Below are positions 1,538 to 31,946 of a stretch of 64,000 nucleotides of DNA, piece after piece. The stretch comes from Aliiroseovarius pelagivivens (GTDB lineage Bacteria; Pseudomonadota; Alphaproteobacteria; Rhodobacterales; Rhodobacteraceae). The notes beneath the pieces were generated by a model. The model was given only the letters and a program-made list of their open reading frames with translations, ran no database searches and was not told the DNA's origin. A program made the translations under genes and the position numbers. The stretch spans positions 2,294,001 to 2,358,000 of the forward strand of contig NZ_OMOI01000001.1 in assembly GCF_900302485.1 (NCBI RefSeq), read 5' to 3'. The number at the start of each line of letters is the position of its first letter. Position 1 is the stretch's first letter.

Positions 1538-2518
1538 TTATGACCATGGATCGAGCACGATTTTAGGCGAGGCGACCGCGCCACTGCGCAGATCGCGAAA
1601 GGCTTCTGCCCCGTCAGACAGCCCGCGTTTTTCAATCCAGTCAAGCATTCCTAAGCGCCCATCAAATATGGCATGAGCTGCGTCGCGGAAGTCTTGCGAC
1701 GTGTAGGTGTAGGTTCCGATGAACGTGATCTCTTGCAGTGTCATTCGTCGGATATCGAGGCCGTCGGTGTCTTCCCCCAATCCTACATGCGCGATCACTC
1801 CGCCGGGAACTGCGATTGCGGACGCAAGGGCGCGTGTGGCGGCATATCCGACCGCATCGATAACAATTGAGGCATGTTTGGTGGCATTGTCCATCACGGT
1901 TTGATCGCAACGCTCGGCAAGGAACACGCGGCGCTTTTCATTCGGTTCGACGATCGTGATGTCATCCACGCCCATGGCGCGCAGCGCAAGCGCCGCTGCC
2001 AATCCGATCGCTCCACCACCGATGACAAGCGCCGTACGCTTCATCTTTGGATGTATCGCGTCCAGCGCCAAACGCGCTGCGTGCCAGCTCACTGCAAGCG
2101 GCTCGGCCAACGCGGCCTTGGACAAAGGTACGGTGTCCGGGACGGTCACAAGATTGCTGTCCGGCATCGCCACGTATTGTGCAAACGCCCCTTCGCGCGG
2201 CGGCATCGAGATAATCTGGCGGTCCCCGCAAAGGTTCTCGCGCCCAGCGACACAAGCCGCGCAGGTTCCGCAGGTCACAAGCGGATTGATGGTCACGCGG
2301 CGGCCGTCTTGCGGGCCGCCTTCGATGATGCCTGCAGCTTCGTGCCCAAGGATCAGCGGCGCCGGTCGCCGGTCATCATGCCCCAGATAGGCATGCATGT
2401 CGGAGCCGCAAATCCCCGACGCCATGATGCGGATCAGGTGTTCACCCTCTCTCGCTTCAGCCTTGGGGACATCGCGATACCCGAGCGTTTCAATACCTTC
2501 GCAAACCAGAGCTTTCAT
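1538..2518 (-). CDS. hpsP: zinc-dependent alcohol dehydrogenase, HpsP-like (DHPS 2-dehydrogenase candidate)
   Basis: A medium-chain NAD(P)-dependent dehydrogenase of 326 residues. The catalytic-zinc region CGSDMHAYLGHD and GHEAAG is followed by a structural-zinc loop with four cysteines (CGTCAAC...C). A Rossmann motif GGGAIGLAAAL lies near residue 170. In known DHPS degraders a zinc dehydrogenase (HpsP) and an SDR (HpsO) together interconvert DHPS enantiomers through the 2-keto compound, so that HpsN can use both. The ATG overlaps the SDR stop by four bases, which ties the two genes together. The family and position support the name. The assignment to HpsP rather than another polyol dehydrogenase is inference from the HpsN neighbour. 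Confidence 0.75.
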   Translation of the reverse strand: MKALVCEGIETLGYRDVPKAEAREGEHLIRIMASGICGSDMHAYLGHDDRRPAPLILGHEAAGIIEGGPQDGRRVTINPLVTCGTCAACVAGRENLCGDRQIISMPPREGAFAQYVAMPDSNLVTVPDTVPLSKAALAEPLAVSWHAARLALDAIHPKMKRTALVIGGGAIGLAAALALRAMGVDDITIVEPNEKRRVFLAERCDQTVMDNATKHASIVIDAVGYAATRALASAIAVPGGVIAHVGLGEDTDGLDIRRMTLQEITFIGTYTYTSQDFRDAAHAIFDGRLGMLDWIEKRGLSDGAEAFRDLRSGAVASPKIVLDPWS

Positions 2519-3276
2519 TTCGCTGTGAACCCTCCGTCTACCATCAGGACCTGCCCCGTCACAAAGGATGACGCGTCCGAGCACAGGAAGAGAAGCGGAC
2601 CGTCCAAATCCTCAAGCCGCCCATTGCGCCCGATACAGGTCTGGGCGGCGTTGCGATTTGCACGGTCATCATCATCGAAAATCGCCTGTGTCAGTTCGGT
2701 CGGGAAGAACCCCGGACCTATTGCATTGGCGGTGATGCCATAGGGCGACCAAGCTTCGGCCGTCGCGCGGGTCAATTGGCCGACCCCCGCTTTGCTCGCG
2801 CCATAGGCAATGCCGCCAGGAAAGGCACGTGTGGTCTGCAAAGATGCAAAATTCACGATGCGGCCCCAGCTTTTCTTCTTCATCGCCGGAACGAGCGCTT
2901 GGCTTAGAAAAAACGGGGTCGAGAGGTTCAGGGCCAACGTCTGATCCCATCCTTCAGGTGTAACCTCATCCGCTGGCTGACGCGTGTTCACCCCAGCCGC
3001 ATGGATCAAGATATCTGGCGATCCAAACGGTGCTGATATAGCGCCACACAGGGAACCAAGGTTTTCCCGGTCCGCGACGTCCGCCGCCACACAGGCAGCA
3101 TCTCCCCCGATCTCGGCGGTCAGGCTTTGAAGCGCATCTTTACGCCGCGCAACGGATACGACTCGCGCACCTGCCGCAGACAAAGCAATCGCCGCCCGCC
3201 GACCAAGACCAGAACTGGCCCCGGTGATGCAGGCGACCTTACCCGTCAGGTCAAATAGAGATCGCGGATCATCCAT
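2515..3276 (-). CDS. hpsO: short-chain dehydrogenase, HpsO-like (DHPS 2-dehydrogenase candidate)
   Basis: A classical SDR of 253 residues. It has the cofactor motif GASSGLGRR near residue 19, NAG-type segment HAAGVNTRQ, a catalytic serine in FASLQ and the YGASK active-site tetrad element. The C-terminal TGQVLMVDGGFT is typical of the family. Basic residues after the second strand (ARRKD) leave NAD versus NADP open. It overlaps hpsN by eight bases and the zinc dehydrogenase by four, so the three genes are translated as one block. By analogy with described DHPS clusters it would oxidise the C2 hydroxyl of DHPS reversibly, giving racemisation with HpsP. Confidence 0.75.
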   Translation of the reverse strand: MDDPRSLFDLTGKVACITGASSGLGRRAAIALSAAGARVVSVARRKDALQSLTAEIGGDAACVAADVADRENLGSLCGAISAPFGSPDILIHAAGVNTRQPADEVTPEGWDQTLALNLSTPFFLSQALVPAMKKKSWGRIVNFASLQTTRAFPGGIAYGASKAGVGQLTRATAEAWSPYGITANAIGPGFFPTELTQAIFDDDDRANRNAAQTCIGRNGRLEDLDGPLLFLCSDASSFVTGQVLMVDGGFTAK

Positions 3277-4576
3277 TTGCGGTCAAATCGAAGGTTTCGT
3301 CGGGGAAGTATTTCTCCAAACGGACGTCCGCCGCTCGTGCGTGCCCTTCCATGCCCTCAAGACGTGAAATACGGGCCGTTGCTTCGGCGACCGCTTTCGA
3401 CCCTTCGCGGGTGGCGCGCTGCCATGTGACGATCTTCATGTATTTGTGCACGCTCAAGCCACCCGTGTAGCTCGCCGCACCTGACGTGGGTAGAACGTGG
3501 TTGGTTCCTGCTGCTTTGTCGCCATAGGAAACAGTTGTCTCTTCACCCAAGAACAGCGATCCGTAGCAGCGCAACCGCCCCAACCACCAATCCAAGTCAT
3601 CGGCCTGAACGGTCAGATGCTCCGGCGCATACTCGTCGGACGTGGCCGCCATTTCCTCGCGATCCGAGCACACCATCACCTCTGCATAGTCGCGCCATGC
3701 GGCCTCGGCGTTTTCCCGGTTCAATTCAGGCAGGTCCGCGATCAACCCCGGCACCCGAGCCAGCACATCTTCAGCCAAAGGCCGATGATCCGTCACCAGC
3801 CACACTGGAGAATTATACCCATGCTCTGCTTGGCTCACGAGATCGGTCGCGACGATGTGTGGGTCAGCCCCCTTGTCTGCAAGGATCAGGCTGTCTGTCG
3901 GGCCCGCGATCATGTCGATGCCAACACGCCCATAAAGGGTGCGTTTGGCCTCGGCAACGAACTGGTTTCCCGGTCCGACGATGATGTTGGCCTTGGGTTG
4001 CTCGAACAAACCAAACGCCATAGAGGCAATGCCCTGCACCCCCCCGATTGCCATAATCTTGTCAGCCCCGCACGCGTGGGCCGCATATACGATTGCGGGA
4101 TACAGACCTACGCCGGGTTGAGGTGCCGAACAGACAGTAATGTGCTCGCAGCCAGCGACCTTGGCGGTTGTTACGGTCATGATCGCACTGGCGATGTGGC
4201 GATAGCGACCAGCAGGGACGTAGCATCCAGCGGCCGTGACCGGAATTGCCTTTTGGCCAGCAATCAAGCCCGGATTGATCTCGTATTCCACATCTGCAAC
4301 CGTCGCCTTTTGCACTTCCGCAAACCGTCGCACATTGTCATGCGCGAATAGTATGTCATCTTTTAGTTTCTGCGGAACCAGCGCGCTTGCCTCTTCGATT
4401 TCGTCGGGGGTAAGCCGCACGTTCCCGTCGTATTTGTCGAACTTCTTTGCATACTCCAGCGCTGAAGCCTCGCCGCCGATTTCAATATCTGAGAGGATCT
4501 GTCTGACGGTCTTTGCCGTCTCGCCTTCGTCCGAGCGAGAAGTGAGGATTGCCTTTTTCAAGTATTCACGTGTCAT
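3269..4576 (-). CDS. hpsN: sulfopropanediol 3-dehydrogenase (histidinol-dehydrogenase family)
   Basis: HpsN oxidises (R)-DHPS to (R)-sulfolactate with two NAD+, using the two-step alcohol-to-acid chemistry of histidinol dehydrogenase. The 435-residue protein keeps the HisD fold signatures: SQAEHG (zinc ligands Gln and His), YAPEHL (catalytic Glu-His), GDKAAGTNHVLPTSG with the zinc-binding Asp, and EGMEGHARA with the last zinc His. It is not HisD: there are no other histidine genes nearby, and it sits in an operon with a TRAP importer, two C2 dehydrogenases and ComDE. A good ribosome site (GGACCTCC complement) precedes the ATG. A paralogue at 26795-28063 shares most of these motifs. Confidence 0.88.
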   Translation of the reverse strand: MTREYLKKAILTSRSDEGETAKTVRQILSDIEIGGEASALEYAKKFDKYDGNVRLTPDEIEEASALVPQKLKDDILFAHDNVRRFAEVQKATVADVEYEINPGLIAGQKAIPVTAAGCYVPAGRYRHIASAIMTVTTAKVAGCEHITVCSAPQPGVGLYPAIVYAAHACGADKIMAIGGVQGIASMAFGLFEQPKANIIVGPGNQFVAEAKRTLYGRVGIDMIAGPTDSLILADKGADPHIVATDLVSQAEHGYNSPVWLVTDHRPLAEDVLARVPGLIADLPELNRENAEAAWRDYAEVMVCSDREEMAATSDEYAPEHLTVQADDLDWWLGRLRCYGSLFLGEETTVSYGDKAAGTNHVLPTSGAASYTGGLSVHKYMKIVTWQRATREGSKAVAEATARISRLEGMEGHARAADVRLEKYFPDETFDLTANG

Positions 4577-5652: not shown

Positions 5653-5655
5653 GGT

Positions 5656-8209: not shown

Positions 8210-8230
8210 GCGGGGCCACAGAGGCCCCGC
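8210..8230 (-). promoter_or_regulatory. hairpin between TRAP binding-protein and permease genes
   Basis: An eight-base perfect stem (GCGGGGCC / GGCCCCGC) with a five-base loop lies 15 bases after the binding-protein stop. No long T-run follows on the minus strand. It may stabilise or partly terminate the upstream transcript, giving more binding protein than permease. That effect is inferred from similar intergenic hairpins in other transporter operons. Confidence 0.55.
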
Positions 8231-8244
8231 ACAAAAGGCTGGTG

Positions 8245-16690: not shown

Positions 16691-17965
16691 TTAGTGTTTG
16701 CCTTTCCACGGCACCAGGATGCTCTCGGCCTTGCGCATCAGGATATCGATACCAAAGCCGATCACGCCAATCAGGATAATCCCCATCAAAACGATGTCGG
16801 TCAGGGTGAATTTGGAAGCGACCATGATCATCATCCCCGCACCCTCGGATGCGGCCACAAGTTCGGCGGCCACAACCGTGCCCCAACAGACCCCCATCGC
16901 CACGCGGGCGCCGGTGAAAATCTCGGGCAGCGAGTTGGGCACAATCACATGACGCATGATCTGCCATTTACTAGCACCCAGCGAATAGGCGGCGTGCACC
17001 TTGGAGATATTCACACCCGATACGCCGGAGCGTGCGGCAATGGCCATGATCCAGAGCGCGGCCAGGAACAATAGGATGATCTTGCCCGTCTCGCCGATAC
17101 CAAACCAGATGATGATCAGTGGGATCAACGCCAGTGGCGGCACCGGCCGCATGAATTCGACAATCGGGTCGAACCAGCCGCGGAACCAGCCATTAAGACC
17201 CATCGCATAGCCCAGTGGGATGCCAACCAGCGCCCCAGCAACGAAGCCTGCAATGACTCGGAAAAGCGAATAGCCAAGATGCACGGCAAGCGTGCTGCCG
17301 CGATAGCCTTCGCTGCCAATCTCGACAACTCGGTCTAACACCGCCTCGGGCGGGGGAAGATATACCGGGTCCATCTGCAGGCCCTTAGGCGGCGTGAAAC
17401 TGATCGCACCCTTGTCGGTAAGGGCAAAGCGGCCCTTGTCGTTGGTGACAACCATGCCTGCGGAAATCGGTTCGCCTTCGATGGCAACAACCGATGCGCC
17501 TTCTTTGCGCTTGGCCTCGTCATTTTGGTCGAACAAAACCGTTTGAGTACGCGACGCGGTCATGGCCACGGCATCGTCCTTTGCGAACCCGTCGCCAGGT
17601 TCGACCTGGAATTTCACCACGTCGTCGCCGAAATTGAATACCTGGACAAAGACGGTGGCGTCATCGCGATTGCCGTTGCCATCATCAAGCGTGTAGTCAA
17701 ACGTGGTTTCGCCAACAAACGGTGACGGCGCCTGCAAGAAACCAGGCACCCATTGTGAGCCGGTAAAGGCACCCCAGATCAGAAAGATCGTGACCACCGA
17801 AATGACGCTGGCCCACCGGTTCGAGACGACCGCGCTTTCATCGCCAAAGGTGACGGTTTTAAGTGATGTGTAGTCCGCCCGTGCGCGTCGCACGACAAAC
17901 TTGATGAAAAAGAACGACCCTACAAAGATCGCGACATAGACGAGAAGAATGATGATGCCGGTCAT
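16691..17965 (-). CDS. TauC/SsuC-type ABC permease with an inserted extracytoplasmic domain
   Basis: The inner-membrane permease of an organosulfonate-type ABC importer, 424 residues against about 250-280 for ordinary TauC/SsuC. It opens with a membrane helix (1-25) and a second around 52-70. About 125 inserted residues (80-205) follow, before the usual LPPPEAVLDR start of the family domain. The insert contains TFDYTLDDGNGN, a pattern like cadherin/VCBS-type beta domains. The C-terminal half has the ABC permease EAA-type loop (GVNISKVHAAYSLGASKWQIMRHVIVPNSLPEIFTG read with the AAYSLGAS core). The ATG overlaps the ATPase stop by four bases. The transported compound is probably taurine or another C2/C3 amino sulfonate. 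Confidence 0.85.
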   Translation of the reverse strand: MTGIIILLVYVAIFVGSFFFIKFVVRRARADYTSLKTVTFGDESAVVSNRWASVISVVTIFLIWGAFTGSQWVPGFLQAPSPFVGETTFDYTLDDGNGNRDDATVFVQVFNFGDDVVKFQVEPGDGFAKDDAVAMTASRTQTVLFDQNDEAKRKEGASVVAIEGEPISAGMVVTNDKGRFALTDKGAISFTPPKGLQMDPVYLPPPEAVLDRVVEIGSEGYRGSTLAVHLGYSLFRVIAGFVAGALVGIPLGYAMGLNGWFRGWFDPIVEFMRPVPPLALIPLIIIWFGIGETGKIILLFLAALWIMAIAARSGVSGVNISKVHAAYSLGASKWQIMRHVIVPNSLPEIFTGARVAMGVCWGTVVAAELVAASEGAGMMIMVASKFTLTDIVLMGIILIGVIGFGIDILMRKAESILVPWKGKH

Positions 17966-18768
17966 TGGTTGTCCTCCGTGCGTCCCATGATTTCCTCTTC
18001 CATGTCCCAGATCATTTCGAGGATCTCCTCGCGGGTTGGGCCATACTCAGGGTGTTTCTTGACTTCGCGCAGGTCGGCGCCGACGCCCATATCGGCAAAG
18101 GGTAGCCGGTATTCCTTGTGGATGCGCCCCGGACGGGGGGCCATAACCAGCAACCTTTCACCCAGAAGCAGCGCTTCTTCCACCGAGTGGGTGATCAGGA
18201 TGATGGTCTTGCCGGTCTCTTTCCAGAGCTTCAAAACCAGGCCTTGCATCTTTTCGCGGGTCAGCGCGTCAAGTGCGCCCAAAGGTTCATCCATCAAGAT
18301 GACATCGGGGTCATTGGCGAGACAGCGCGCCAAGGCGACACGTTGTTGCATGCCGCCTGACAATTCGTAGATCGCTTTGTCCTTGAAGTCCCCCAAGCCG
18401 GTGACATCAAGCAGATGATCGACATGCTCACCCCACTGCGCCTCTTTCTGGCCCTTCATACGTGGGCCGAAGCTGACATTCTCGCGCACATCCATCCATT
18501 CAAACAGCGCGCCCTGCTGGAACACCATGCCGCGTTCGGCATCGGGCCCGATGCAGGTATGGCCGTTCATCACCACCGCGCCTTCGGTGGGGGCCAGAAA
18601 CCCGGCCACGATATTAAGAAGCGTAGTCTTGCCACAGCCCGATGGGCCAAGCACGCTCAACAGCTCGCCCTCGTTGAGGTGTAGTGATACGTCTTTCAAT
18701 GCCTGCACCGAGCTGCCGTTGGGCAGGTCGAAACGCATTGAGACGTTTTCGATGGACAGTCCCGACAT
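17962..18768 (-). CDS. TauB/SsuB-type ABC transporter ATPase
   Basis: A 268-residue nucleotide-binding subunit. Walker A is GPSGCGKTTLL near residue 44, the signature is LSGGMQQRVALARCL, Walker B is VILMDEPLGALD, and the switch histidine is in ILITHSVEEA. The start at MSGLSIENV follows an AAAGGCAGG site and gives the normal length; a 15-codon upstream extension is not needed. It energises the TauC-like permease encoded directly downstream with a four-base overlap. The hairpin at 18881-18904 separates it from the binding-protein gene. The subfamily is the nitrate/sulfonate/taurine group. Confidence 0.92.
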   Translation of the reverse strand: MSGLSIENVSMRFDLPNGSSVQALKDVSLHLNEGELLSVLGPSGCGKTTLLNIVAGFLAPTEGAVVMNGHTCIGPDAERGMVFQQGALFEWMDVRENVSFGPRMKGQKEAQWGEHVDHLLDVTGLGDFKDKAIYELSGGMQQRVALARCLANDPDVILMDEPLGALDALTREKMQGLVLKLWKETGKTIILITHSVEEALLLGERLLVMAPRPGRIHKEYRLPFADMGVGADLREVKKHPEYGPTREEILEMIWDMEEEIMGRTEDNQ

Positions 18769-18880
18769 GGCCTGCCTTTCCTGATTGAAAATTGCTTTGC
18801 ACTGACTGCTCATCGCTCCTTTTGGTGTGCGCCCCGAGAGGCCACGAGATAGGATGGAAGAACGGCTGCGAAGATGCGCA

Positions 18881-18904
18881 GCGGCCCGGATGATCCCGGG
18901 CCGC
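18881..18904 (-). promoter_or_regulatory. hairpin between the TauA-like and TauB-like genes
   Basis: A nine-base perfect GC stem (GCGGCCCGG / CCGGGCCGC) with a six-base loop starts 15 bases after the binding-protein stop. It has no T-run, so partial termination or transcript stabilisation is more likely than full termination. Confidence 0.55.
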
Positions 18905-18918
18905 GCAATAGTTATGTC

Positions 18919-19923
18919 TTACATTCCACCAGCGGCTGCCAGCGGGCCGGTATTGACGGCACCGTCATAGCTTCCGAGCGCACTGTCGATGCTTTTCGCC
19001 TCTACAAACACGTCGGCCACGCCTTTCATAAAGGTCTGGGCATTGCCTCCGAGCCAAGCTTCGCTCAGCTGGTCTTCCACGGTCGGGAAGCTAAAGGTCG
19101 AGATGGTCGCCATAGTGGCGTCTTCGTCCATACCCGCATCCTTGGCGATCACCGGCAGCATCTCAGCGCGGTTGGCTTCGTCCGCCCACATGGCGTTGGC
19201 GTCCGCGGTCACCTTAAGGAATTTCGACACCAGATCGCCATTCTCGGCAACCCAGCCCGCCGGGCCCGAGGTCACGTCAAACACCAAAATGCCCAGTTCG
19301 GTTTTCTCGTCACCGGTCAGCAGCACGTTGCCATGTTCCAGCGCGCGGCGCAGCGAACCGCCCCAGCCGCAGAACATGTCGATCGAGCCTTGGGCAATCG
19401 CAGCCGCAGCATCTGGCGGATCCATGTCGACAACTTCCATGCTGCCAACGTCCACGCCAAAGTGGCTCATCTGCTTAAGGAAGCCATAGTGTGCTGCGGT
19501 GCCAAGCGGCACGGCAACTTTTTTGCCGGCCAATTCTCCCGCATTCGTCTTGTCGACTTCCAGTTCCGAACGCACAACGCAGTTGTCGTTGTCGGCATAG
19601 CTGACAGCCACGTCGAGGATTTGCAGGTCCTGCCCAGCCGAGGTAGCAACCACGAAGGGCGGCAGACCTTGGCTGACCGAAAGATGCACATCGCCCGAAG
19701 CCATGGCGGCGGACATTTTCACGCCCGATTCAAAGCTGACCCAGTTGACCTTAACGCCCAGCGCCTCGTCATAAGTGCCCATTTGCTTGGCGTATTCAAA
19801 CGGCATCGGCCATTCGAGGAAATACGCCACGGTGATTTCGTCGGCACTGGCATGTGACGCCGTCAGTATTGCGGTTCCGGCAGCCAGAGCGGCCACGGCT
19901 TTCCGAATGGATCTAGATTTCAT
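18919..19923 (-). CDS. TauA-like periplasmic sulfonate-binding protein
   Basis: A secreted solute receptor of 334 residues. The signal peptide MKSRSIRKAVAALAAGTAILTASHASA is followed by DEITVAYFLEWP, a start typical of taurine-binding TauA proteins. The GVKVNWVSFESGVKMSAAMASGDVHLSVS segment matches the family around the ligand site. The ATG is preceded by GGGAGAA at good spacing. It is the first gene of the minus-strand tau-like operon and is divergent from a LysR gene. Because the neighbouring plus-strand genes encode cysteate catabolism, the ligand may be cysteate, cysteinolate or taurine. This cannot be settled by reading. Confidence 0.87.
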   Translation of the reverse strand: MKSRSIRKAVAALAAGTAILTASHASADEITVAYFLEWPMPFEYAKQMGTYDEALGVKVNWVSFESGVKMSAAMASGDVHLSVSQGLPPFVVATSAGQDLQILDVAVSYADNDNCVVRSELEVDKTNAGELAGKKVAVPLGTAAHYGFLKQMSHFGVDVGSMEVVDMDPPDAAAAIAQGSIDMFCGWGGSLRRALEHGNVLLTGDEKTELGILVFDVTSGPAGWVAENGDLVSKFLKVTADANAMWADEANRAEMLPVIAKDAGMDEDATMATISTFSFPTVEDQLSEAWLGGNAQTFMKGVADVFVEAKSIDSALGSYDGAVNTGPLAAAGGM

Positions 19924-20019
19924 GATTTTCTCCCGGTTGGTTTTTTGACTGGCCCGTCTTTGTGGCGGGCGCATTTTATTTAGTTGGACGCGCGTACTTC
20001 ACTATAGTTTTCGTCGCAA

Positions 20020-20071
20020 ATCTCTGAAAAGAGATCTTCTCCAAGATAATTAAATTGTAGTTTCTAATTAT
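20020..20071. promoter_or_regulatory. inverted repeats in the tauA-like/LysR divergent promoter region
   Basis: Two inverted repeats lie in the 192-base intergenic region between the transporter and the LysR gene. ATCTCT-GAAA-AGAGAT spans 20020-20035, and ATAATTA-N12-TAATTAT spans 20046-20071. The second is AT-rich and has the arm spacing of a LysR box. Binding by the adjacent LysR protein, to control both directions, is inferred. Confidence 0.5.
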
Positions 20072-20115
20072 TCGAATTGCTAGCTTCGCCTAAAATCAAC
20101 TTCGAAAGGCCGATC

Positions 20116-21096
20116 ATGCAACTAACGAAACTGAGCCTTCGGGGCCTCGAAATTTTTCAACTTGTTGCCAAGTCCGGGTCTGTCCGCAAAGTTGCTGCTG
20201 ACACTGGGCTTTCTATCAGCACCGTTTCACACCATTTGCGCCGCTTAGAGGACGATCTTGGTGTCAGCCTTCTGGATCATACACGCCGCCCGATGGTCCT
20301 TACACCAGTTGGAACTATATTTCTTCGCTATATTGACGGAGGTTTGCGACTGATCCGTCGAGGGGAAATAGAACTGGCGTCGGGCAATTTGATCGAAGCT
20401 CAAAATCTGCGCCTTGGAATTGTAGACGACTTTGAAAGCGAAGTCGCACCCGAGTTGATGCAGTTTTTGATGAGGGCAATGCCCAAATGTATCTTCAAAC
20501 ATTATACGCGTCCAAGTCTCGAAATTCTTGAGCTGCTTCAGAAACAGAATCTGGATGCCGGTGTGGCGACACGCCCCCCCCACGACCTGCCCGGGCTGAT
20601 TGAATACCCACTGCTGCGCGATCCGTTTGTTCTGGCCGTGCCAAAATCGAACAAAACCCCCGCCGAGGATTTGCTGCAAGACGGGTCCGGATTGCCCTTT
20701 TTGCGCTATTCACGAGAACAGATTATCGGAAACCTGATCGAAACCCACCTACGGCGCAGCAAGGTTTCGCTGGAGAACCGGTTTGAACTGGAAAGCAACC
20801 AGTCAATAATGGGCATGATTGCTGAGGAAATCGGCTGGGCGATCACCACTCCGTCTCAATATGTACGTGCCAAACGGTTTCACGACCGGATAACACTTCT
20901 TCCATTTCCAAGGAAAAACTTCGCACGTACGATTTCGCTTTATACGACAGAGTTCTACCCCCATGAATTGGCCACTCTGATCGCGGATACGATCCGCCGG
21001 CTCTTGTCACGTCATGTCGTTGAGCAGGTCACAGCCAGCACGCCCTGGCTGCTACATGATTTTCAGTTGTTAACCGATGCAGACGAACAAATCTGA
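20116..21096 (+). CDS. LysR-family transcriptional regulator of the amino-sulfonate locus
   Basis: A 326-residue LysR regulator. The helix-turn-helix is at residues 5-60 (LSLRGLEIFQLVAKSGSVRKVAADTGLSISTVSHHLRRLE), followed by an effector domain starting near residue 90 (LRLGIVDDFES). The ATG at 20116 follows GAAAGG at normal spacing and gives a standard N-terminus; an earlier ATG would add 13 residues. It is divergent from the transporter and points toward the catabolic genes, with 277 bases to the next start. It is the natural candidate to sense the imported sulfonate or a breakdown product such as sulfite or cysteate. Confidence 0.88.
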   Translation: MQLTKLSLRGLEIFQLVAKSGSVRKVAADTGLSISTVSHHLRRLEDDLGVSLLDHTRRPMVLTPVGTIFLRYIDGGLRLIRRGEIELASGNLIEAQNLRLGIVDDFESEVAPELMQFLMRAMPKCIFKHYTRPSLEILELLQKQNLDAGVATRPPHDLPGLIEYPLLRDPFVLAVPKSNKTPAEDLLQDGSGLPFLRYSREQIIGNLIETHLRRSKVSLENRFELESNQSIMGMIAEEIGWAITTPSQYVRAKRFHDRITLLPFPRKNFARTISLYTTEFYPHELATLIADTIRRLLSRHVVEQVTASTPWLLHDFQLLTDADEQI

Positions 21097-21373
21097 AAAC
21101 CCTAGCAACTTGGAAATCTGGTCTGATGGAAGCCGCATTCCAGCTTGTACACAGGATGAAAGTGAAACTCAAAACCTGCTTTTAGCAATGATAACAGAGG
21201 CCTGAGCATATCTAGTTAGTTGCCAGGCTTTGGGCCAGTGGCAAAGCCGCCGCCGACAAGAGACTGATGCATTCAAATATTGGTTTCGATTTTATGGGAT
21301 TAGTTACTACCGGATTGTGAAATTCCGCAATCGTCCTATCCAATGGAGCTCCGAGAATTTGGAGGCTCCTGGT

Positions 21374-23812
21374 ATGAAATCGCGGACCAAGGTTGTAGTT
21401 ATTGGCGGCGGCATTGCTGGTTGCTCTACCCTCTATCACTTGACGCAAGAAGGCTGGAGCGATGTCGTTCTGGTCGAACGTAACGAGCTAACCAGCGGCA
21501 CCACTTGGCACTCGGCTGCACAGGTCACAAACTTCGGCGGAAACCAGACAATGGTCGGGCTGAAGACGCATTCGATCAACCTCTATAAAAAGCTGTCCGA
21601 GAACCCGGACTACCCGATCAACTATCACCACGCTGATGGTGGAATCCGTTTGGCCAACACCGAAGAGCAGATGCAGGGCTACCGCCATTTCTCGTCCATG
21701 GCCCGCGGCATGGGCGTAGATCTCGAGGTGATCGACGCCGAAGAATGTGCCCGCCGCCACCCGTTAATTTCCACCACCAACCTTCTGGGGGGACTCTGGG
21801 ATCCGCTGGATGGTGACATCGACCCTGCGCAGCTGTGTCAGGCGCTGGCCTTCCACGCCCGCAAGGCCGGGGCCGAGGTTTATCGCAACACGCCCGTCAC
21901 CGCCCTAACCCAGCACAAGGATGACACGTGGACCGTGCACACTGAACATGGCGATATCGACTGTGACATCGTTGTGAATGCCTGCGGGTATCGTGTGAAT
22001 GAAGTCGGTGCGATGATGGGTGTTCACCACCCCGTTGCCTCGATGGAGCACCAGTACTTTCTGACTGAGGACATTCCGGCCATTGCCGAGGCTGGCCACC
22101 GCATGCCGCTGCTGCGCTGCCCGATCTCGGATTATTACAGCCGTCAGGAAAAAGGCGGTTTGCTGGTCGGGTTCTACGAACAGGATTGCAAGACTTGGGG
22201 TATGGACGGGATCGACCCAAATTTCGTAAACGCGCTCTGCCCCGACGATCTGGACCGCGTCATGGACGTTCTGGCCGGCGCCTTCGAACGTATGCCTGCG
22301 CTGGAAGAAACCGGTATCCGCGCCATCGTCAACGGCCCGATCACCTATACGATCGACGGCGCCCCGCTGGTTGGCCCGATCCCCGGCAAACGCAACGCAT
22401 TCTGCATCATCGGATTGCGCGCGGGCCTCGGCGAAGGCGGCGGTCATGGCTGGCTGCTGGCGCAACAGATCGTCCATGGGGAAGCCTGCTATGACACGTG
22501 GTGCATCGACCCGCGCCGCTTTACCGGCCATACGAATGTCGAGCTGACGTCGCTGAAAGCGATCGAGGATTACCAGAACGAGTTCCGCTTCCACTTCCCT
22601 CATGAACACCGCCCCGCCGGTCGCCCCGCGAAAACCACGCCGTTAACCCCGATCCTTGCCGCCGAAGGCGCGGAATTCACCGTGGTCAACGGTTGGGAGC
22701 GGATGGACTACATCAAGCCCACTTCCGACTTTCACCCGACACTGTCGTTCAACTTTGACGAAGCTTTTGACATCGTTGGGGCAGAAGTCAAAAACGTTCA
22801 GGAAAATGTCGGCCTGTGCGAGGTCAACGGCTTCAACCGATTTGAAATCACCGGTGCGGATCGCCACAGCTTCCTTGACCGCATGTTCTGCGGAAACGTG
22901 ACCAAACGCGACGGCCGGGTTGGTCTTGGCTACATGCTGAACGATCACGGCATGGTCAAAGGCGAAGCCACCGTTGCCAACCTGCCCAAAAGCGATCGAG
23001 GGCCCGAGCGTATCTGGTTTGGGTCGGCCGCTGCCGCCGAATTCCACGACATGGATTGGCTGACCCAGCATGTAAACGCGGACGAAGACGTTCAGATCAA
23101 ATCGCTGACCAATGACCAGACTATTCTTGTTCTGGCGGGCCCCAATGCCCGCAAAGTCCTGTCCGCCTGCGCGCGCGGAGACTGGTCCAAAGATGCCTTC
23201 CCGTGGCTGTCGGTGCGCGAGTGCTTTATCGGATTCTCGCCTGCCACCGTCATGGGCGTCAGCTTCTCGGGCGAATTGGCCTATGAAATCCACGTTCCGA
23301 ATGCCTCGCTCTATGCCGCGTATCTGACCCTGCGGGCTGCGGGCGAAGAATACGGTCTGAAACTGTTCGGCGCCCGCGCGGTTGACTCGATGCGTATGGA
23401 AAAGGGCTTCATGCACTGGAAAGCGGACCTGCTGACCGAGTTCGATCCGTTTGAGACTGCGCTGGATCGTTTCGTAAAGCTGGACAAGGACGCGGATTTC
23501 ATCGGCAAAGAGGCCCTGCAAAAGCGTCATGCCTCTGGCCCGAACCGGAAGCTGGTGTCCCTTAAGATCGACACGACCCACGCCCCAGCACATGGCGGCG
23601 CCTCGTTGATGCAAGGCGACAAGGTGGTCGGCACCATCACCTCGGGCGACTGGGGCCATCGTGTGGGCATGAACCTTGCCTATGCTTTCGTCGAGCCGTC
23701 GTTCGCAGCGGAAGGCAGCACCATGGATCTGGACCTGTGCGGAGATCGCGTCACGGCTACTGTCATAACGCCGTCGCCCTACGACCCCAGCTTCGCACTG
23801 ATGCGAAGCTAA
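21374..23812 (+). CDS. dimethylglycine/sarcosine-dehydrogenase-like FAD and folate enzyme
   Basis: An 812-residue two-part enzyme. The N-terminal DAO-type FAD domain (VVVIGGGIAGCSTLYHL) contains GTTWHSA, whose histidine matches the covalent FAD attachment site of dimethylglycine and sarcosine dehydrogenases. A GcvT-type aminomethyltransferase domain follows from about residue 440, with FSGELAYEIHVP. Such enzymes remove an N-methyl group oxidatively and pass the one-carbon unit to tetrahydrofolate. The start was set by the GGAGG site at 21361 and the immediate Rossmann strand. It lies 49 bases upstream of cuyA on the same strand. The neighbours suggest an N-methylated amino sulfonate as substrate, but ordinary dimethylglycine or sarcosine cannot be excluded. 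Confidence 0.83.
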   Translation: MKSRTKVVVIGGGIAGCSTLYHLTQEGWSDVVLVERNELTSGTTWHSAAQVTNFGGNQTMVGLKTHSINLYKKLSENPDYPINYHHADGGIRLANTEEQMQGYRHFSSMARGMGVDLEVIDAEECARRHPLISTTNLLGGLWDPLDGDIDPAQLCQALAFHARKAGAEVYRNTPVTALTQHKDDTWTVHTEHGDIDCDIVVNACGYRVNEVGAMMGVHHPVASMEHQYFLTEDIPAIAEAGHRMPLLRCPISDYYSRQEKGGLLVGFYEQDCKTWGMDGIDPNFVNALCPDDLDRVMDVLAGAFERMPALEETGIRAIVNGPITYTIDGAPLVGPIPGKRNAFCIIGLRAGLGEGGGHGWLLAQQIVHGEACYDTWCIDPRRFTGHTNVELTSLKAIEDYQNEFRFHFPHEHRPAGRPAKTTPLTPILAAEGAEFTVVNGWERMDYIKPTSDFHPTLSFNFDEAFDIVGAEVKNVQENVGLCEVNGFNRFEITGADRHSFLDRMFCGNVTKRDGRVGLGYMLNDHGMVKGEATVANLPKSDRGPERIWFGSAAAAEFHDMDWLTQHVNADEDVQIKSLTNDQTILVLAGPNARKVLSACARGDWSKDAFPWLSVRECFIGFSPATVMGVSFSGELAYEIHVPNASLYAAYLTLRAAGEEYGLKLFGARAVDSMRMEKGFMHWKADLLTEFDPFETALDRFVKLDKDADFIGKEALQKRHASGPNRKLVSLKIDTTHAPAHGGASLMQGDKVVGTITSGDWGHRVGMNLAYAFVEPSFAAEGSTMDLDLCGDRVTATVITPSPYDPSFALMRS

Positions 23813-23861
23813 GCAACAGCCACTCAAGACAAATCCGTGACACACACTCAAGGAACTCAAA

Positions 23862-24875
23862 ATGCACCTGTCCCGCTTCCCGCGCGTCCACCTCGCCCAC
23901 TTGTCCACACCGCTCGAACCGATGAAGCGTCTATCCAAAGAGTTGGGCGTTGATCTTTGGATCAAACGCGATGACTGCACCGGCATGTCAACCGGCGGCA
24001 ACAAGACCCGCAAGCTTGAATTCTTAATGGCCGAGGCGCTGGAACAGGGCGCTGACATGGTGATGACCCAAGGGGCAACGCAGACCAACCATGGGCGTCA
24101 AACCGCAGCCTTTGCAGCAAAGCTGGGTCTGAAATGCCATATCCTGCTGGAAGATCGGACCGGCTATCAGGATGGAAACTACAACACCAACGGCAACGTC
24201 CTGCTGGACCACCTGCACGGCGCCACGACCGAGAAATTCCCCGGTGGCCACGATATGCCCGCCGAGATGGAGCGCGCCGCCGAGACGATGCGCGCCAAGG
24301 GGCACAAAGTCTATGTCATTCCTGGCGGCGGGTCCAACTCGACCGGCGCGCTTGGATATGTGAACTGTGCGTTCGAGCTGGTCTCACAGGCCAATGACGC
24401 CGGAATGAAGATTGATCGCGTGGTTCATGCAACCGGATCGTCCGGCACACAAGCTGGGCTGGTGACGGGCATGTGCGCAATGAATGCACAGATTCCTGTT
24501 TTGGGCATCGGCACCCGTGCGCCGCAAGAAAAGCAGGAACAGATGGTTTTTGATCTGGCCTGCAAGACTGCGGAAAAACTGGGCTGTCCGGGCGTCGTGT
24601 CGCGCGAGGATGTCATGGCCAACACCGATTATGTTGGTGAAGGCTATGGCCTTCCCACCGAAAGCGGCATCGAGGCGATCCGGATGTTCGCCGAGCTTGA
24701 AGGCATCTTGCTGGATCCCTGTTACTCGGCCAAGGGGGCAGCTGGTCTGATCGACCTTGCCCGTAAGGGCGCATTTGATGGCGAACGGATCGTGTTCCTG
24801 CACACCGGCGGAGCGGCTGCTCTGGGCGGTTACGATTTTGCTTTCGACAACACAAATCGCTGGGTCAGCCTGTAA
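23862..24875 (+). CDS. cuyA: L-cysteate sulfo-lyase
   Basis: CuyA eliminates sulfite and ammonia from L-cysteate to give pyruvate, with PLP as cofactor. The 337-residue protein belongs to the ACC-deaminase/D-cysteine-desulfhydrase group. The PLP lysine is in the motif [12 protein letters not shown] (about residue 45), and [13 protein letters not shown] and [15 protein letters not shown] bind substrate and phosphate. The overall sequence strongly resembles the described Ruegeria/Silicibacter CuyA. D-cysteine desulfhydrase is the alternative. The presence of a TauABC-like importer, a racemase and an HpsN-like enzyme supports cysteate. The AAGGAAC ribosome site is well placed, and the stop is four bases before the next gene. 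Confidence 0.82.
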
Positions 24876-24879
24876 GAAT

Positions 24880-26082
24880 ATGGTCACCGTGGCATCTCAA
24901 TTCACAGGCTCGTTCACGCAGCAGGAAGCTCTTCCTGCCGGTGCTGTGGATGCCGCGGTGGCCGTTTTGCAGACTGGTCGGCTGCATCGCTATAATCTTA
25001 CCGAAGACGAAATCGGAGAGGTTTCAGCGCTGGAATCCGAGTATCGCGATTGGCAGGGTTGTGGATTTTGTCTGGCGGTCACATCCGGTGGTCAGGCCAT
25101 GCAAATCGCCTTACGCGCCTGTGGTGTGTCTGCGGGCGATCCCGTTTTGACAAATGCTTTCACTCTGGCCCCTGTCCCGGGTGCGATTGCCGCTGTTGGT
25201 GGCAAACCGGTTCTTGTGGAAATCACCGAAGACCTACGACTGGACTTTGACGATCTGGAGCAGAAGATCGAGGCAAGCGGGGCTCGGGTTTTGCTCTTGT
25301 CGCATATGCGTGGGCATCTCTGTGACATGGATCGCCTTGTGCAGATCTGTGACGCCCGCAAGGTTCTCGTGATCGAGGATTGCGCTCATACGATGGGGGC
25401 AAGCTGGAATGGCAGGCGGTCGGGCAATTTCGGCAAGATGGCCTGTTTCTCGACCCAGACCTATAAACATATGAATTCCGGTGAGGGCGGGTTGCTAACA
25501 ACCGATGACGCAGCCCTTGCGGCACGGGCGACAATCCTGTCGGGCAGCTATATGCAGTATGAACGCCACGGCGCAGGTCCGGACGCAGAGGCGTTTGCCG
25601 CCGCCCGTTTGGACATGCCCAATTGCTCGGCCCGCATGGACGCACTGCGCGCCGCCATCCTGCGCCCGCAGCTGGCGGTGCTGGATCAGTCGATCACGCG
25701 CTGGAACGAACGCTACCAGATTGTTGAACGCGGCCTGCGCGGCGCCCCAGGCATCACGCCGATCACGCGACCAATCCAGGAACAGCCGGTCGGGTCGTCG
25801 ATCCAGTTCCGCGTACCCGATTTCACCGATGCACAGTGCCAGACCCTGCTAGCTGAATCCGCCGCGCGCGGGGTCGACCTAAAGTGGTTCGGTGGACAAG
25901 ACCCATCAGGCTTCACTTCGGCCCATGGCAGCTGGCGTTACGTCACGCCACAGAACTTGCCACGCACGGATGCAGTACTGGCCACGCTGTTTGACATGCG
26001 CCTGCCTTTGACTTTTTCGACAGAGGACTGCGCCTTGGTTGCCTCGATCCTCGGCAACGTTGCCGAAACGGTGGCCGCATGA
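24880..26082 (+). CDS. DegT/DnrJ/EryC1-family PLP aminotransferase
   Basis: A 400-residue fold-type I aminotransferase. The PLP lysine is in FSTQTYKHMNSGEGGLL, the family signature, and an Asp-His pair (IEDCAHTMGA) precedes it. DegT enzymes usually aminate keto groups on sugars or cyclitols. The ATG was chosen because it lies four bases after the cuyA stop; an earlier in-frame start would sit inside cuyA. It overlaps the racemase gene by four bases. In this cluster a 2-keto-3-hydroxypropane sulfonate to cysteinolate interconversion would suit such an enzyme, but that substrate is my inference. No sugar-nucleotide genes are nearby. Confidence 0.8.
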   Translation: MVTVASQFTGSFTQQEALPAGAVDAAVAVLQTGRLHRYNLTEDEIGEVSALESEYRDWQGCGFCLAVTSGGQAMQIALRACGVSAGDPVLTNAFTLAPVPGAIAAVGGKPVLVEITEDLRLDFDDLEQKIEASGARVLLLSHMRGHLCDMDRLVQICDARKVLVIEDCAHTMGASWNGRRSGNFGKMACFSTQTYKHMNSGEGGLLTTDDAALAARATILSGSYMQYERHGAGPDAEAFAAARLDMPNCSARMDALRAAILRPQLAVLDQSITRWNERYQIVERGLRGAPGITPITRPIQEQPVGSSIQFRVPDFTDAQCQTLLAESAARGVDLKWFGGQDPSGFTSAHGSWRYVTPQNLPRTDAVLATLFDMRLPLTFSTEDCALVASILGNVAETVAA

Positions 26083-26798
26083 ACCGATCGAAAGCAAAAC
26101 GCGTGGTCGGCATTCTTGGCGGTATGGGACCAGAAGCGACGATCTTGTTACAACAGCGCGTTCTGGCAACGGTCGAGGCCACAGATGATTCTGATCACCT
26201 GCCGTTGCTGATCGACATGAACCCGCATGTTCCGTCGCGCATCGCCCATTTGATCGAACAAACCGGAGAGGACCCCGGTCCGTGCATTGGCGCGATGGCG
26301 CAACGCCTTGAAGCGGCAGGAGCAACAGCACTGGCCATGCCCTGCAATACGGCCCATCACTATGCGCAAGCCGTGACCTCGGCGGTGTCGATCCCATTTC
26401 TGAACATGGTTGACCTTTCTGTTGTGAAAGCCGCGTCGCGTATGCAACCCGGGCAGAGCATTGGATTTCTTGCCTCTCCGGCCGTGCAATCTGCGGGGGT
26501 TTTCGACGAAGCGCTCAACAAAGCCAGTATGCAGGCCGTCTGGCCCGAAGATGGCCAACGGATGCTTTCGATCATTCGCGAGATCAAAGCAAAGGGTCCG
26601 ACCGCGCAGGCACGCCAAACCCTCGGCGAGGCCGCCCATGAACTTACCACCAAAGGTGCGACGCTCTTGTTTGTCGCCTGTTCTGAATTTTCTCTTATCG
26701 CACGCGATCTGCCGAAAGACTTTCCAATTATCGACACTGTCGACGTATTGGCGGATGCGATCCATGACCATACCACTGCAAACGAGGTACCCCTGTGA
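26079..26798 (+). CDS. aspartate/glutamate-family amino acid racemase (candidate cysteate racemase)
   Basis: A 239-residue PLP-independent racemase. The family start GILGGMGPEATILL is followed by the two catalytic cysteines in MPCNTAHHY (Cys89) and FVACSEFSLI (Cys201). These enzymes invert the alpha carbon of acidic amino acids by two-base chemistry. Cysteate is a sulfonate analogue of aspartate, so inversion of D-cysteate to the L form used by CuyA is chemically reasonable. The gene overlaps its neighbours by four bases on both sides, showing tight coupling. Plain aspartate racemase is the conservative alternative. Confidence 0.83.
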   Translation: MNRSKAKRVVGILGGMGPEATILLQQRVLATVEATDDSDHLPLLIDMNPHVPSRIAHLIEQTGEDPGPCIGAMAQRLEAAGATALAMPCNTAHHYAQAVTSAVSIPFLNMVDLSVVKAASRMQPGQSIGFLASPAVQSAGVFDEALNKASMQAVWPEDGQRMLSIIREIKAKGPTAQARQTLGEAAHELTTKGATLLFVACSEFSLIARDLPKDFPIIDTVDVLADAIHDHTTANEVPL

Positions 26799-28063
26799 CC
26801 GTCACATACTTGAAGAAAGCTGCCCCTCGTCCTGCAACGGAAAACAACGATATCCGCGATATCGTCAGAATAATGTTGACCAACATCGCACGCGACGGCG
26901 AAGAGGCCGTGCGCCGCTATGCCAAGGACCTCGACCGTTGGGAAGGTGACATCGTCCTGTCCGACGCGGACCGCGCCGCCGCTTGCGCCCGGGTGCCAGA
27001 AGATCTGAAGGCGGACATTCAGTTTGCGCACAACAACATACGACGCTTCGCACAAGCACAGCAGGCAACCATTCAGGAATGCGAGATCGAGGTTATTCCG
27101 GGACTGATTGCAGGGCAGAAGCAGATCCCCGTATCCAGTGCAGGGTGTTATGTGCCTGGTGGACGCTACAGCCACATCGCCAGTGCCTTGATGACGATCA
27201 CCACGGCCAAGGTTGCCGGAGTTCCACATATCACCGCCGCTTCGCCGCCGCGCGAAGGCGGCATCCCGGATGCCATTGTTTATGCGATGGATCTGTCTGG
27301 CGCCGATCTGATCCTGAACCTTGGTGGAGTGCAAGGCATTGCCGCAATGGCGCAAGGGCTGTTTGGCGGAAAACCCGCTGATATTCTGGTCGGTCCAGGC
27401 AATTCCTATGTCGCCGAAGCCAAGCGCATGTTGTTTGGTGAAGTTGGCATCGACATGTTCGCCGGGCCGACAGACTCTCTGGTGATCGCCGATCACACCG
27501 CCTCTGTCGAAACCGTGGCCTGGGATCTGGTCAGTCAGGCCGAACATGGTGTCGATAGCCCGGTTTGGCTGATCGCCACCGAGCGCGATTTGGCGAATGG
27601 CGTTCTTGAACGGGTGCACGCGTTGATCGCCGAATTGCCCGAACCCAACGCTTCGGCTGCCCGGACGTCCTGGGAAGACCGGGCCGAAGTTATCCTGTGC
27701 GACACCCGGGAAGAGGCCGCCGCCATCGCTGACCGCTACGCACCCGAGCATCTTCAGGTTCAAGCGGACGATCTTGACTGGTGGCTGAACAAGCTCAGCG
27801 CCTACGGATCCCTGTTCCTAGGTGAAGAAACGACGGTCTCATTCGGCGACAAAACTTCGGGGCCGAACCATGTGCTGCCGACAAGCGGTGCTGCGCGCTA
27901 TACCGGCGGGCTGTCGGTTCACAAATTCACCAAGACGGTGACCTGGCAACGTTGCAACACCGAAGCATCACATGAACTGGCGCAGCGGACGGCCCGTATT
28001 AGCCGCATGGAGGGGATGGAAGGCCACGCCCGTGCCGCCGAGATACGACTGATCGGCGCCTGA
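26795..28063 (+). CDS. HpsN/histidinol-dehydrogenase-like enzyme, second copy
   Basis: A 422-residue histidinol-dehydrogenase-family protein closely resembling the HpsN at 3269-4576. It keeps SQAEHG, YAPEHL, GDKTSGPNHVLPTSG and EGMEGHARA, so the zinc site and the Glu-His catalytic pair are complete. The family converts an alcohol to an acid with two NAD+. It is co-translated with the racemase and lies downstream of CuyA, not with HpsO/HpsP/ComDE. This suggests a different substrate from DHPS. Cysteinolate is an amino alcohol like histidinol, and its oxidation would yield cysteate. DHPS itself remains possible. Confidence 0.82.
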   Translation: MTVTYLKKAAPRPATENNDIRDIVRIMLTNIARDGEEAVRRYAKDLDRWEGDIVLSDADRAAACARVPEDLKADIQFAHNNIRRFAQAQQATIQECEIEVIPGLIAGQKQIPVSSAGCYVPGGRYSHIASALMTITTAKVAGVPHITAASPPREGGIPDAIVYAMDLSGADLILNLGGVQGIAAMAQGLFGGKPADILVGPGNSYVAEAKRMLFGEVGIDMFAGPTDSLVIADHTASVETVAWDLVSQAEHGVDSPVWLIATERDLANGVLERVHALIAELPEPNASAARTSWEDRAEVILCDTREEAAAIADRYAPEHLQVQADDLDWWLNKLSAYGSLFLGEETTVSFGDKTSGPNHVLPTSGAARYTGGLSVHKFTKTVTWQRCNTEASHELAQRTARISRMEGMEGHARAAEIRLIGA

Positions 28064-29466: not shown

Positions 29467-29678
29467 AATAAGAGCCTTCGGGAAGTGTTGTTGATAGTTG
29501 TGACCCTAACGCGTTTTTCGGCCTCGAGCAATTTCCAGTCTCGCCCTTAGCCCCCCGCAACATGTGCAATGCCCCCCTAGCAGTGCCAGTGTAGTGGTGC
29601 TTCGCGCCCCAATTTTGGTGACAATTTCCCCGGCCTCAGCTACTTTTCTTGGATACTTCACTCATTTGGAACGGCGAT

Positions 29679-31889: not shown

Positions 31890-31946
31890 ATGATCTCGTG
31901 GCAGTGCAAGCTAGGGCATAGCTCAGACTTAGAGAGAGGAAAGCAG

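Follow-up and report, generated by a model that had tools for sequence, protein, structure and literature searches.

What is a second HpsN-type dehydrogenase doing in a genome when its neighbours are genes of cysteate breakdown and not hpsO and hpsP? The question is raised by a nine-gene locus of Aliiroseovarius pelagivivens, a bacterium related to the marine Roseobacters, within a 64,000-nucleotide stretch of contig NZ_OMOI01000001.1 (the window). Cysteinolate (2-amino-3-hydroxypropane-1-sulfonate) is an abundant algal sulfur compound, and the locus probably takes it up and degrades it, a reading to which we give a probability of about two in three. Such a route looks assembled from known enzyme types.

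Layout of the locus

All nine genes are open frames (Table 1), and frames and family searches agree on the gene set recognized in the preliminary description, namely an importer, a LysR gene, a demethylase, CuyA, a DegT aminotransferase, a racemase and an HpsN-like enzyme. Overlaps, or gaps of no more than four bases, between the last four genes are confirmed, because the frames as read leave 4 bases between the cuyA stop (24875) and the likely degT ATG (24880), and overlap by 4 bases at degT/cuyB (26079-26082) and by 4 at cuyB/hpsN2 (26795-26798). The demethylase gene ends 49 bases before cuyA, and a terminator looked for 3′ of hpsN2 was not found. The genome holds four PF00815 genes, their best family match being the HisD gene at C1:2074418. 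The last gene of the locus is indeed a second HpsN, since HpsN1 (3269-4576), clustered with hpsO, hpsP and comDE, is 60% identical to it.

Table 1. Genes of the locus and of the DHPS cluster used for comparison (positions in the window)
Feature	Position	Strand	Remarks
TauC-like permease, ABC importer	16691..17965	-	best NCBIfam match TauC
TauB-like ATPase, ABC importer	17962..18813	-	best match taurine ATP-binding subunit
TauA-like binding protein (P0003)	18919..19974	-	second possible ATG at 19923
LysR regulator, divergent from importer	20116..21096	+	ORF opens 20077; ATG 20116
Dimethylglycine-dehydrogenase-like FAD/folate demethylase (P0005)	21374..23812	+	ORF opens 21230; likely ATG 21374
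cuyA, D-cysteate sulfo-lyase	23862..24875	+	NCBIfam match over curated cut-off
DegT/DnrJ aminotransferase	24880..26082	+	ORF opens 24757; likely ATG 24880; PLP lysine kept
cuyB, cysteate racemase	26079..26798	+	NCBIfam match over curated cut-off; both racemase-fold cysteines kept
hpsN2, HpsN-type dehydrogenase, proposed cysteinolate dehydrogenase	26795..28063	+	PF00815; GRYSH motif
hpsP, hpsO, hpsN1, separate DHPS genes, outside operon	1538..4576	-	for comparison
comDE	23-1074		in cluster with hpsP, hpsO, hpsN1

HpsN2 and the cysteate enzymes

Compared with HpsN (CpHpsN; PDB 8wwe), HpsN2 shares 62.2% of 405 aligned residues with 8wwe and is 56.9% identical to C. pinatubonensis HpsN. It carries the GRY[AS]H motif of these enzymes as GRYSH and, in the alignment, keeps the sulfonate-binding residues as His127 and Lys353 (His126 and Lys353 of CpHpsN) together with all of the zinc and catalytic residues Q248, H251, E318, H319, D352 and H411. 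CpHpsN Ser226 is Thr in HpsN2, as it is in 21 of 22 hpsO/P-linked rows. With HisD it shares the PF00815 family, a two-step oxidation of an amino alcohol and a 2-amino group as zinc ligand; in contrast, the HisD motif GSAPL does not replace GRY[AS]H in HpsN2, and the HisD of the same genome is only 35.6% identical and has Tyr at both sulfonate-binding positions in this alignment. Residues telling HpsN2 from DHPS-linked HpsN were sought as well, and under an 85% rule only two conservative V/I columns differed, which gave no call on specificity.

The published work on C. pinatubonensis HpsN describes an R-specific enzyme in which L-cysteate is bound like its own product, in the product site that R-sulfolactate takes up; in histidinol dehydrogenases the 2-amino group is bound at the corresponding zinc site (PMC11382572). 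In this line, an amino sulfonate entering through the TauABC-type importer would meet HpsN2, which would convert the CH2OH of cysteinolate into a carboxylate in two NAD+-dependent steps, with the 2-amino group of the substrate replacing the DHPS 2-hydroxyl as zinc ligand and the sulfonate gripped by His127 and Lys353. As CpHpsN is R-specific and binds L-cysteate like its product, L-cysteate is the form expected from HpsN2, and inversion by CuyB would have to follow. CuyB would thus supply D-cysteate to CuyA, and CuyA would split it to pyruvate, ammonia and sulfite.

Both enzymes score above their curated NCBIfam cut-offs, CuyA with 525.2 bits against 450 (NF052482), the only CuyA over the cut-off in the genome, and CuyB with 281 bits against 190 (NF052483). 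CuyB also keeps, in MPCNTAH and VACSEF, the two cysteines of the Asp/Glu racemase fold, which we take to have their usual role in that fold. The locus resembles the CuyA/CuyB cysteate pathway in these scores and differs from it in being coupled to an alcohol dehydrogenase as the proposed source of the cysteate. NCBIfam names the two enzymes D-cysteate sulfo-lyase and cysteate racemase, and CuyB has been reported to interconvert L- and D-cysteate, with CuyA preferring the D form (PMC11382572). Part of the route first sketched for this locus must therefore be turned around. Oxidation by the HpsN paralogue followed by CuyB and CuyA stands, backed by recurrence, by the HpsN tree and by the absence of DHPS genes from the stretches around such loci, and on sequence grounds is largely supported as the best fit to the recurrent operon. 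Cleavage of L-cysteate by CuyA does not stand, nor does a D-form substrate as the reason for the racemase: CuyB should serve the L-cysteate made by HpsN2. On the configuration of natural cysteinolic acid, two reference titles in PMC8703288 differ ('2-L-amino' against 'd-cysteinolic').

Since no active-site residue sets it apart from DHPS-linked HpsN, sequence leaves DHPS as a possible substrate of HpsN2. The locus could then be a CuyA branch of the DHPS pathway, with HpsN2 taking R-DHPS to R-sulfolactate, a dehydrogenase encoded elsewhere giving sulfopyruvate, DegT acting as the missing sulfopyruvate aminotransferase that forms L-cysteate, and CuyB and CuyA finishing the job. For R. pomeroyi, a CuyA branch has been described in which no gene is known for the aminotransferase or the racemase (PMC11382572), and the window here also contains the DHPS cluster. 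That cluster, however, has a TRAP permease, whereas the importer here is of TauABC type, and the genome keeps its separate HpsN1 with hpsO and hpsP.

Recurrence of the module in other genomes

The distribution of the genes bears on this alternative. In a survey of 149 genomes, one per genus, an HpsN-type gene stands no more than 5 kb from CuyB in 21 of 40 places, always on the same strand (21/21), against about 0.09 expected; HisD-like paralogues, used as a control, come that close to CuyB in 0 of 68 places. The association of HpsN-type genes with CuyB is beyond chance. Related neighbourhoods, looked for as the preliminary description had proposed, recur in other genera and in another order, and the same set stands in several gene arrangements: hpsN-cuyA-cuyB, cuyA-cuyB-hpsN and cuyA-degT-cuyB-tauABC-hpsN. 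The smallest complete sets (importer, LysR, cuyA, cuyB and hpsN2, the stretch having no demethylase) are found at loci L025 (Ruegeria sp. ANG-R) and L108. Among the 39 other CuyB stretches, cuyA is present in 34 and an HpsN-type gene in 21; it was not seen in 18, and 8 of the 39 stretches are shorter than 10 kb. The clade of HpsN2 comprises 58 loci, 33 with cuyA and 32 with cuyB.

In place of the hpsO and hpsP neighbours of HpsN, the HpsN2 group has cuyA/cuyB, TauABC and the dimethylglycine-dehydrogenase-like gene. No hpsO or hpsP at 40% identity or more occurs in the 58 loci (one 37% match left uncounted), the window gene included, and no hpsO, hpsP, suyAB, comDE, slcC or comC in the 39 CuyB stretches, with a single Paracoccus sequence as query for slcC and another for comC; five SDR matches for hpsO, all weak (25-34%), and one 32% match for slcC were also left uncounted. 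The phylogeny that had been proposed as a check points the same way: in a tree of 96 rows the CuyAB-linked and hpsO/P-linked HpsN occupy nearly separate parts with two label changes, three CuyAB-linked sequences falling outside the main group. Moreover, DegT is optional, being found in 19 of the 58 loci and in 8 of the 39 stretches. With DHPS genes of the hpsO, hpsP, suy, com and slc kinds missing from these local stretches (0/58 and 0/39) and DegT so often lacking, a CuyA branch of the DHPS pathway seems unlikely. The operon also suggests that gene surveys should not count every HpsN-type sequence as a DHPS dehydrogenase.

The recurrence has its limits. Genomes with cuyAB-free HpsN2 loci were predicted to carry CuyA at another place, but this did not hold for 17 of the 21 genomes checked, a sample drawn from 20 of the 25 cuyAB-free clade loci (L027, L036, L039, L045 and L090 lie outside it) plus two Yoonia-type loci, minus L017; a contig end cuts some of these stretches short, and cuyAB may lie just beyond. 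Some CuyA match at E 1e-90 exists in 9 of the 21 genomes, whereas CuyA exceeds its cut-off in 4, as does CuyB in 4; by raw counts, ComE is present in 14 and Xsc in 21, and 7 have neither CuyA over the cut-off nor ComE. Most of these genomes would therefore need another exit for cysteate, which argues against a universal cysteinolate-to-CuyA route across HpsN2 loci. In Yoonia, a related TauABC-HpsN group adjoins Xsc together with an aminotransferase and a regulator of MocR type, an arrangement like that of a taurine locus. Such cases, and the finding of just one TauABC-type importer in the genome, would suit a locus for cysteate and/or taurine to which HpsN2 came as a hitch-hiker, its substrate being some other amino alcohol or sulfo-alcohol. 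The 21/21 same-strand linkage of HpsN-type genes to CuyB in several gene orders, set against 0/68 for HisD-like paralogues, makes this explanation unlikely. With hpsN2, cuyA and cuyB as a marker set, and with named strains that carry them, the operon offers a way to test a candidate for the link that is missing from algal sulfonates to marine bacteria.

Importer, demethylase and aminotransferase

The closest families of the permease, ATPase and binding protein are TauC, TauB and TauA, but all three fall below the curated equivalog cut-offs for taurine (232.6 against 342 bits, 268.9 against 357 and 143.2 against 304.25, respectively). Asp233 of the binding protein aligns with an Asp of E. coli TauA that presumably binds the amine; it is kept in 33 of 33 close TauA-like orthologues, and the position is Tyr in SsuA and Asn in 4 of 6 proteins of the other TauA type described below. 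In a search of the genome at E 1e-5 P0003 matched only itself and, as the only TauA-like protein found there, it may serve taurine too. A second TauABC type, whose TauA has just 28-32% identity, is found with the module in seven loci, three of them from Hyphomicrobiales. Near the hpsN-cuyA-cuyB operons L097 and L100 no importer was found by a Pfam scan of ten hand-picked ORFs, several of them possibly spurious, which returned housekeeping genes or nothing.

The demethylase has the domain architecture of dimethylglycine dehydrogenase (DAO, FAO_M, GCV_T and GCV_T_C), its best PDB matches are dimethylglycine dehydrogenases, and it aligns with them at a TWH stretch that we take to be the site of the covalent FAD histidine. 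It differs in forming its own orthologue group, found in 46 of 149 genomes compared with 133 of 149 for its paralogue. Despite its frequent linkage to HpsN2, this enzyme had no part in the route of the preliminary description.

As the commonest enzyme neighbour in the HpsN2 clade (40 of 58 loci, with an MttB-like gene in 12), the demethylase hints at N-methylated cysteinolate. It would strip N-methyl groups from the methylated substrate or from methylated cysteate. Tentatively, then, the imported compound may above all be N-methylated cysteinolate, as far as the trimethyl form ('cysteinolate betaine') in loci with a linked MttB-like gene, with the methyls passed to folate by the dimethylglycine-dehydrogenase-like enzyme, before or after the carboxylate step of HpsN2, and the cysteinolate route following; this proposal overlaps the main reading. 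It is consistent with loci L005 (Leisingera methylohalidivorans DSM 14336) and L034 (a MAG), whose stretches encode a ProX-like binding protein of betaine type but no TauA, and with the occurrence of HpsN-type genes in 41 of the 46 genomes with this demethylase against 33 of 103 others, a pattern that could also reflect lifestyle. The two genes lie within 8 kb in 6 of 46 genomes (four CuyAB-linked, two hpsO-linked), compared with 0 of 68 genomes having both for the paralogue, a control that informs on linkage only, the paralogue being nearly universal. However, 40 of the 46 places of this demethylase are away from HpsN-type genes, and so its substrate may be some general N-methyl compound. Moreover, the stretches of L025, of L108 and of the seven loci that have the second TauABC type contain no such gene, no MttB-like gene is present in the window, and a literature search found no paper on N-methylated cysteinolate. 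Were the proposal true, algae would make a sulfobetaine new to science, and its breakdown would be a new pathway of betaine catabolism.

The DegT protein (DegT/DnrJ/EryC1 family) has the PLP-binding lysine of an aminotransferase, not a dehydratase, K237 being invariant in the five sequences aligned. We infer for it an optional amino transfer, between sulfopyruvate and cysteate or between cysteinolate and a keto-sulfonate. The gene occurs with cuyAB and, at locus L154, also beside mttB, the dimethylglycine-dehydrogenase-like gene and an hpsN-hpsO pair.

Gene content and proposed route

A gene set of importer, LysR regulator, demethylase, CuyA, DegT aminotransferase, racemase (CuyB) and a second HpsN-type dehydrogenase (HpsN2) had been proposed in the preliminary description, and it was confirmed from open reading frames and family matches. 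Within the locus CuyB retains both cysteines and CuyA contains a GGNKTRK stretch, residues whose functional roles, like that of the DegT lysine, are generally established. The best reading of the locus, to which we give a probability of about two in three, is a route for cysteinolate (2-amino-3-hydroxypropane-1-sulfonate) in which HpsN2 would yield L-cysteate, CuyB would convert it to D-cysteate and CuyA would split the latter. The proposed route is a variant of organosulfonate catabolism rather than a separate kind.

Features of the proposed cysteinolate-type locus and of the DHPS cluster in the window
Feature	Position	Strand	Remarks
DHPS cluster	1-9339	minus	comE-comD, hpsP, hpsO, hpsN1 and flanking genes
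TauC-, TauB-, TauA-like importer	16691-19974	minus	closest to TauABC, below all three NCBIfam taurine cut-offs
LysR gene	ATG 20116	plus	
DMGDH-like demethylase	likely ATG 21374, end 23812	plus	domain order of dimethylglycine dehydrogenase (DMGDH)
cuyA	23862-24875	plus	525.2 against NCBIfam curated cut-off of 450
DegT aminotransferase	likely ATG 24880, end 26082	plus	PLP lysine present
cuyB	26079-26798	plus	281 against NCBIfam curated cut-off of 190
hpsN2	26795-28063	plus	HpsN-type dehydrogenase

Cysteinolic acid is treated as a presumed precursor of DHPS in algae (PMC11131964), and in R. pomeroyi neither the aminotransferase gene nor the CuyB gene is known according to PMC11382572. The literature searched, which covers few subscription papers, lacks the term cysteinolate and, in the portions available, names no catabolic genes for cysteinolic acid; given this coverage, an earlier description of the route may exist.

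Four PF00815 genes were found in the genome: the presumed HisD, which scored best; hpsN1, located in the DHPS cluster with hpsO, hpsP and comDE; hpsN2; and, at C1:737622, a fourth gene of HisD-like type. A single genome thus contains two HpsN-type enzymes that lie 22 kb from each other in different settings. The only CuyA over the cut-off in the genome is that of the hpsN2 locus, and the TauA-like protein matched only itself at E 1e-5. The DHPS cluster also contains a PRK14013-type protein and a TRAP (DctM-type) permease reading frame of 858 aa, and one further gene there has no NCBIfam match. The HisD-like gene (C1:737622-738836) shares 45% identity with HpsN2 and has Met in place of the diagnostic His; in an even sample of 149 genomes, one per genus, its relatives (44-50% identity) were found at 68 places.

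The HpsN2 enzyme and its relatives

HpsN2 shares 62.2% identity with 8wwe, an (R)-DHPS dehydrogenase of solved structure, 60.2% with HpsN1 and 56.9% with the HpsN of C. pinatubonensis (CpHpsN), against 35.6% for HisD of the same genome. The active-site residues that PMC11382572 names for CpHpsN were compared between 22 rows linked to hpsO/P and 62 others. H126, H251, E318, H319, D352 and K353 (CpHpsN numbering) are retained in HpsN2 and in every row of both groups, as are, also in HpsN2, Q248 in 22/22 and 61/62 rows and H411 in 21/22 (8wwe stops short of it) and 62/62. S226 is replaced by Thr in HpsN2, in 21/22 linked rows and in 62/62 others, and no active-site residue in these aligned rows distinguishes the two groups; HisD of the same genome, unlike HpsN2, has Tyr at the positions of H126 and K353. 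PMC11382572 describes CpHpsN as about a million-fold selective for R-DHPS, as inhibited by L-cysteate (IC50 2.4 mM) and as binding L-cysteate in the crystal in the manner of R-sulfolactate. Hence an amino group can replace the hydroxyl in CpHpsN, and by analogy L-cysteate would be the expected product of HpsN2.

On the two checks proposed earlier, phylogeny and neighbourhood, CuyAB-linked rows stand nearly apart from hpsO/P-linked ones, and HpsN-type genes with cuyAB recur in several gene orders. The locus set comprised the best 80 of 496 loci that HpsN2 as query gave on genome contigs, eight plasmid loci and C. pinatubonensis. In a first tree HpsN2 fell inside a group of 59 rows (SH-aLRT 91), whose other 58 loci, from this locus set, carry within the fetched stretches lysR in 41, dmgdh in 40, tauA in 34, cuyA in 33, cuyB in 32 (33 counting one 37% match), degT in 19, mttB in 12 and proX in 2, and hpsO, hpsP, suyB or comD in none; these counts are not independent, since 12 of the 58 bear the name Leisingera. 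A second, more carefully built tree with 96 rows gave a group of 66 (bootstrap 96, SH-aLRT 89) with 49 CuyAB-linked, 17 unlinked and no hpsO/P-linked rows; L064, L066 and L083 are the CuyAB-linked rows outside it. The hpsO/P label needs 3 changes on this tree (shuffled mean 22.3, 0/500 as low), a test that demonstrates clustering only and to which near copies contribute, and 2 changes when only hpsO/P and CuyAB labels are counted.

A minimal layout, tauABC-lysR-cuyA-cuyB-hpsN2, occurs in L025, and also in L006, L019 and L024, where dmgdh or mttB lies 3-6 kb beyond it. The gene set of the window is matched in L013, L014 and L056 as far as their stretches extend; one Leisingera form has dmgdh, tauABC, lysR and hpsN2 without cuyAB, and a Hyphomicrobiales form (L007, L008, L009) runs cuyA-degT-cuyB-tauABC-hpsN. 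In L005 (Leisingera) and L034 (a MAG) a ProX-like, betaine-type binding protein adjoins an mttB-dmgdh-cuyA-degT-cuyB-hpsN set, with no TauA within the stretch.

Linkage of HpsN-type genes to CuyB and CuyA

In the 149 genomes, CuyB over the cut-off occupies 40 places in 39 genomes and HpsN-type genes (at least 55% identity) 81 places in 74. An HpsN-type gene lies within 5 kb of CuyB at 21 of the 40 places, about 0.09 being expected, on the same strand in 21/21; the HisD-like genes of 44-50% identity do so at 0 of 68 places. HpsN-type genes are present in 31/39 genomes with CuyB against 43/110 others (Fisher p 1.4e-5). The other 39 CuyB loci, fetched with lengths between 3.7 and 18 kb, eight of them below 10 kb, contain cuyA in 34, HpsN-type in 21, degT in 8, tauA in 6, dmgdh-like in 4 (one only 35% identical) and mttB in 2, and hpsO, hpsP, suyAB, comDE, slcC or comC in none of these stretches; hpsN-cuyA-cuyB is a frequent order, which differs from that of the window.

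Against a universal route, the coupling of HpsN2-type enzymes to CuyA does not hold in every genome, as indicated by 21 genomes and by the Yoonia-type loci. The 21 genomes are those of 22 loci less L017; the 22 comprise two Yoonia-type loci and 20 of the 25 loci in the HpsN2 clade that have no cuyAB. CuyA over the cut-off was found in 4/21 and CuyB in 4/21, ComE in 14/21 and Xsc in 21/21; in 14 of the 21, transamination followed by ComDE and Xsc could provide an exit for cysteate, ComE and Xsc being the two components sought, but 7/21 have neither CuyA over the cut-off nor ComE. The neighbours of the TauABC-HpsN group in Yoonia-type loci are a TPP enzyme, an aminotransferase of class III and a regulator of the MocR type, which we take to be the make-up of a taurine locus; the TPP enzyme is Xsc, by coordinates, in L070 and L075, the two such loci given a Pfam run. 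Across the Yoonia/Loktanella type (L070, L072, L073, L075, L076) the HpsN-type gene follows tauABC, beside Xsc, aminotransferase and MocR-type genes.

The demethylase

The demethylase is possibly the more interesting component of the locus. Its orthologues (E up to 1e-300) occur in 46/149 genomes, 41 of which have HpsN-type genes against 33/103 others (p 3.3e-11). Six of the 46 lie within 8 kb of an HpsN-type gene, four of them CuyAB-linked (the window, L099, L100, L107) and two beside hpsO-linked HpsN (L151, L154); the DMGDH paralogue of the same genome, found in 133/149, does so in 0 of the 68 HpsN-type genomes possessing it. Of the 46 loci, 20 were fetched, and in 9 of these the demethylase has mttB as a neighbour; the pair adjoins hpsN-hpsO-hpsP-comDE in L151, and an hpsN-hpsO pair and degT in L154, where cuyAB is absent from the stretch and degT might mark a route that connects cysteinolate and DHPS by transamination. 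In L099 and L100, mttB-dmgdh lies next to hpsN-cuyA-cuyB. These neighbourhoods link the demethylase to C3 sulfonates and suggest N-methylated cysteinolate, a lead only, since 40 of the 46 orthologue places are away from HpsN-type genes.

Beyond the locus, two large plus-strand proteins of 746 and 1493 aa (29649-31889 and 31890-36371) gave no match to Pfam at E 1e-5. The longer one begins in a signal-like manner, and part of its C-terminus looks like a kinase by eye.
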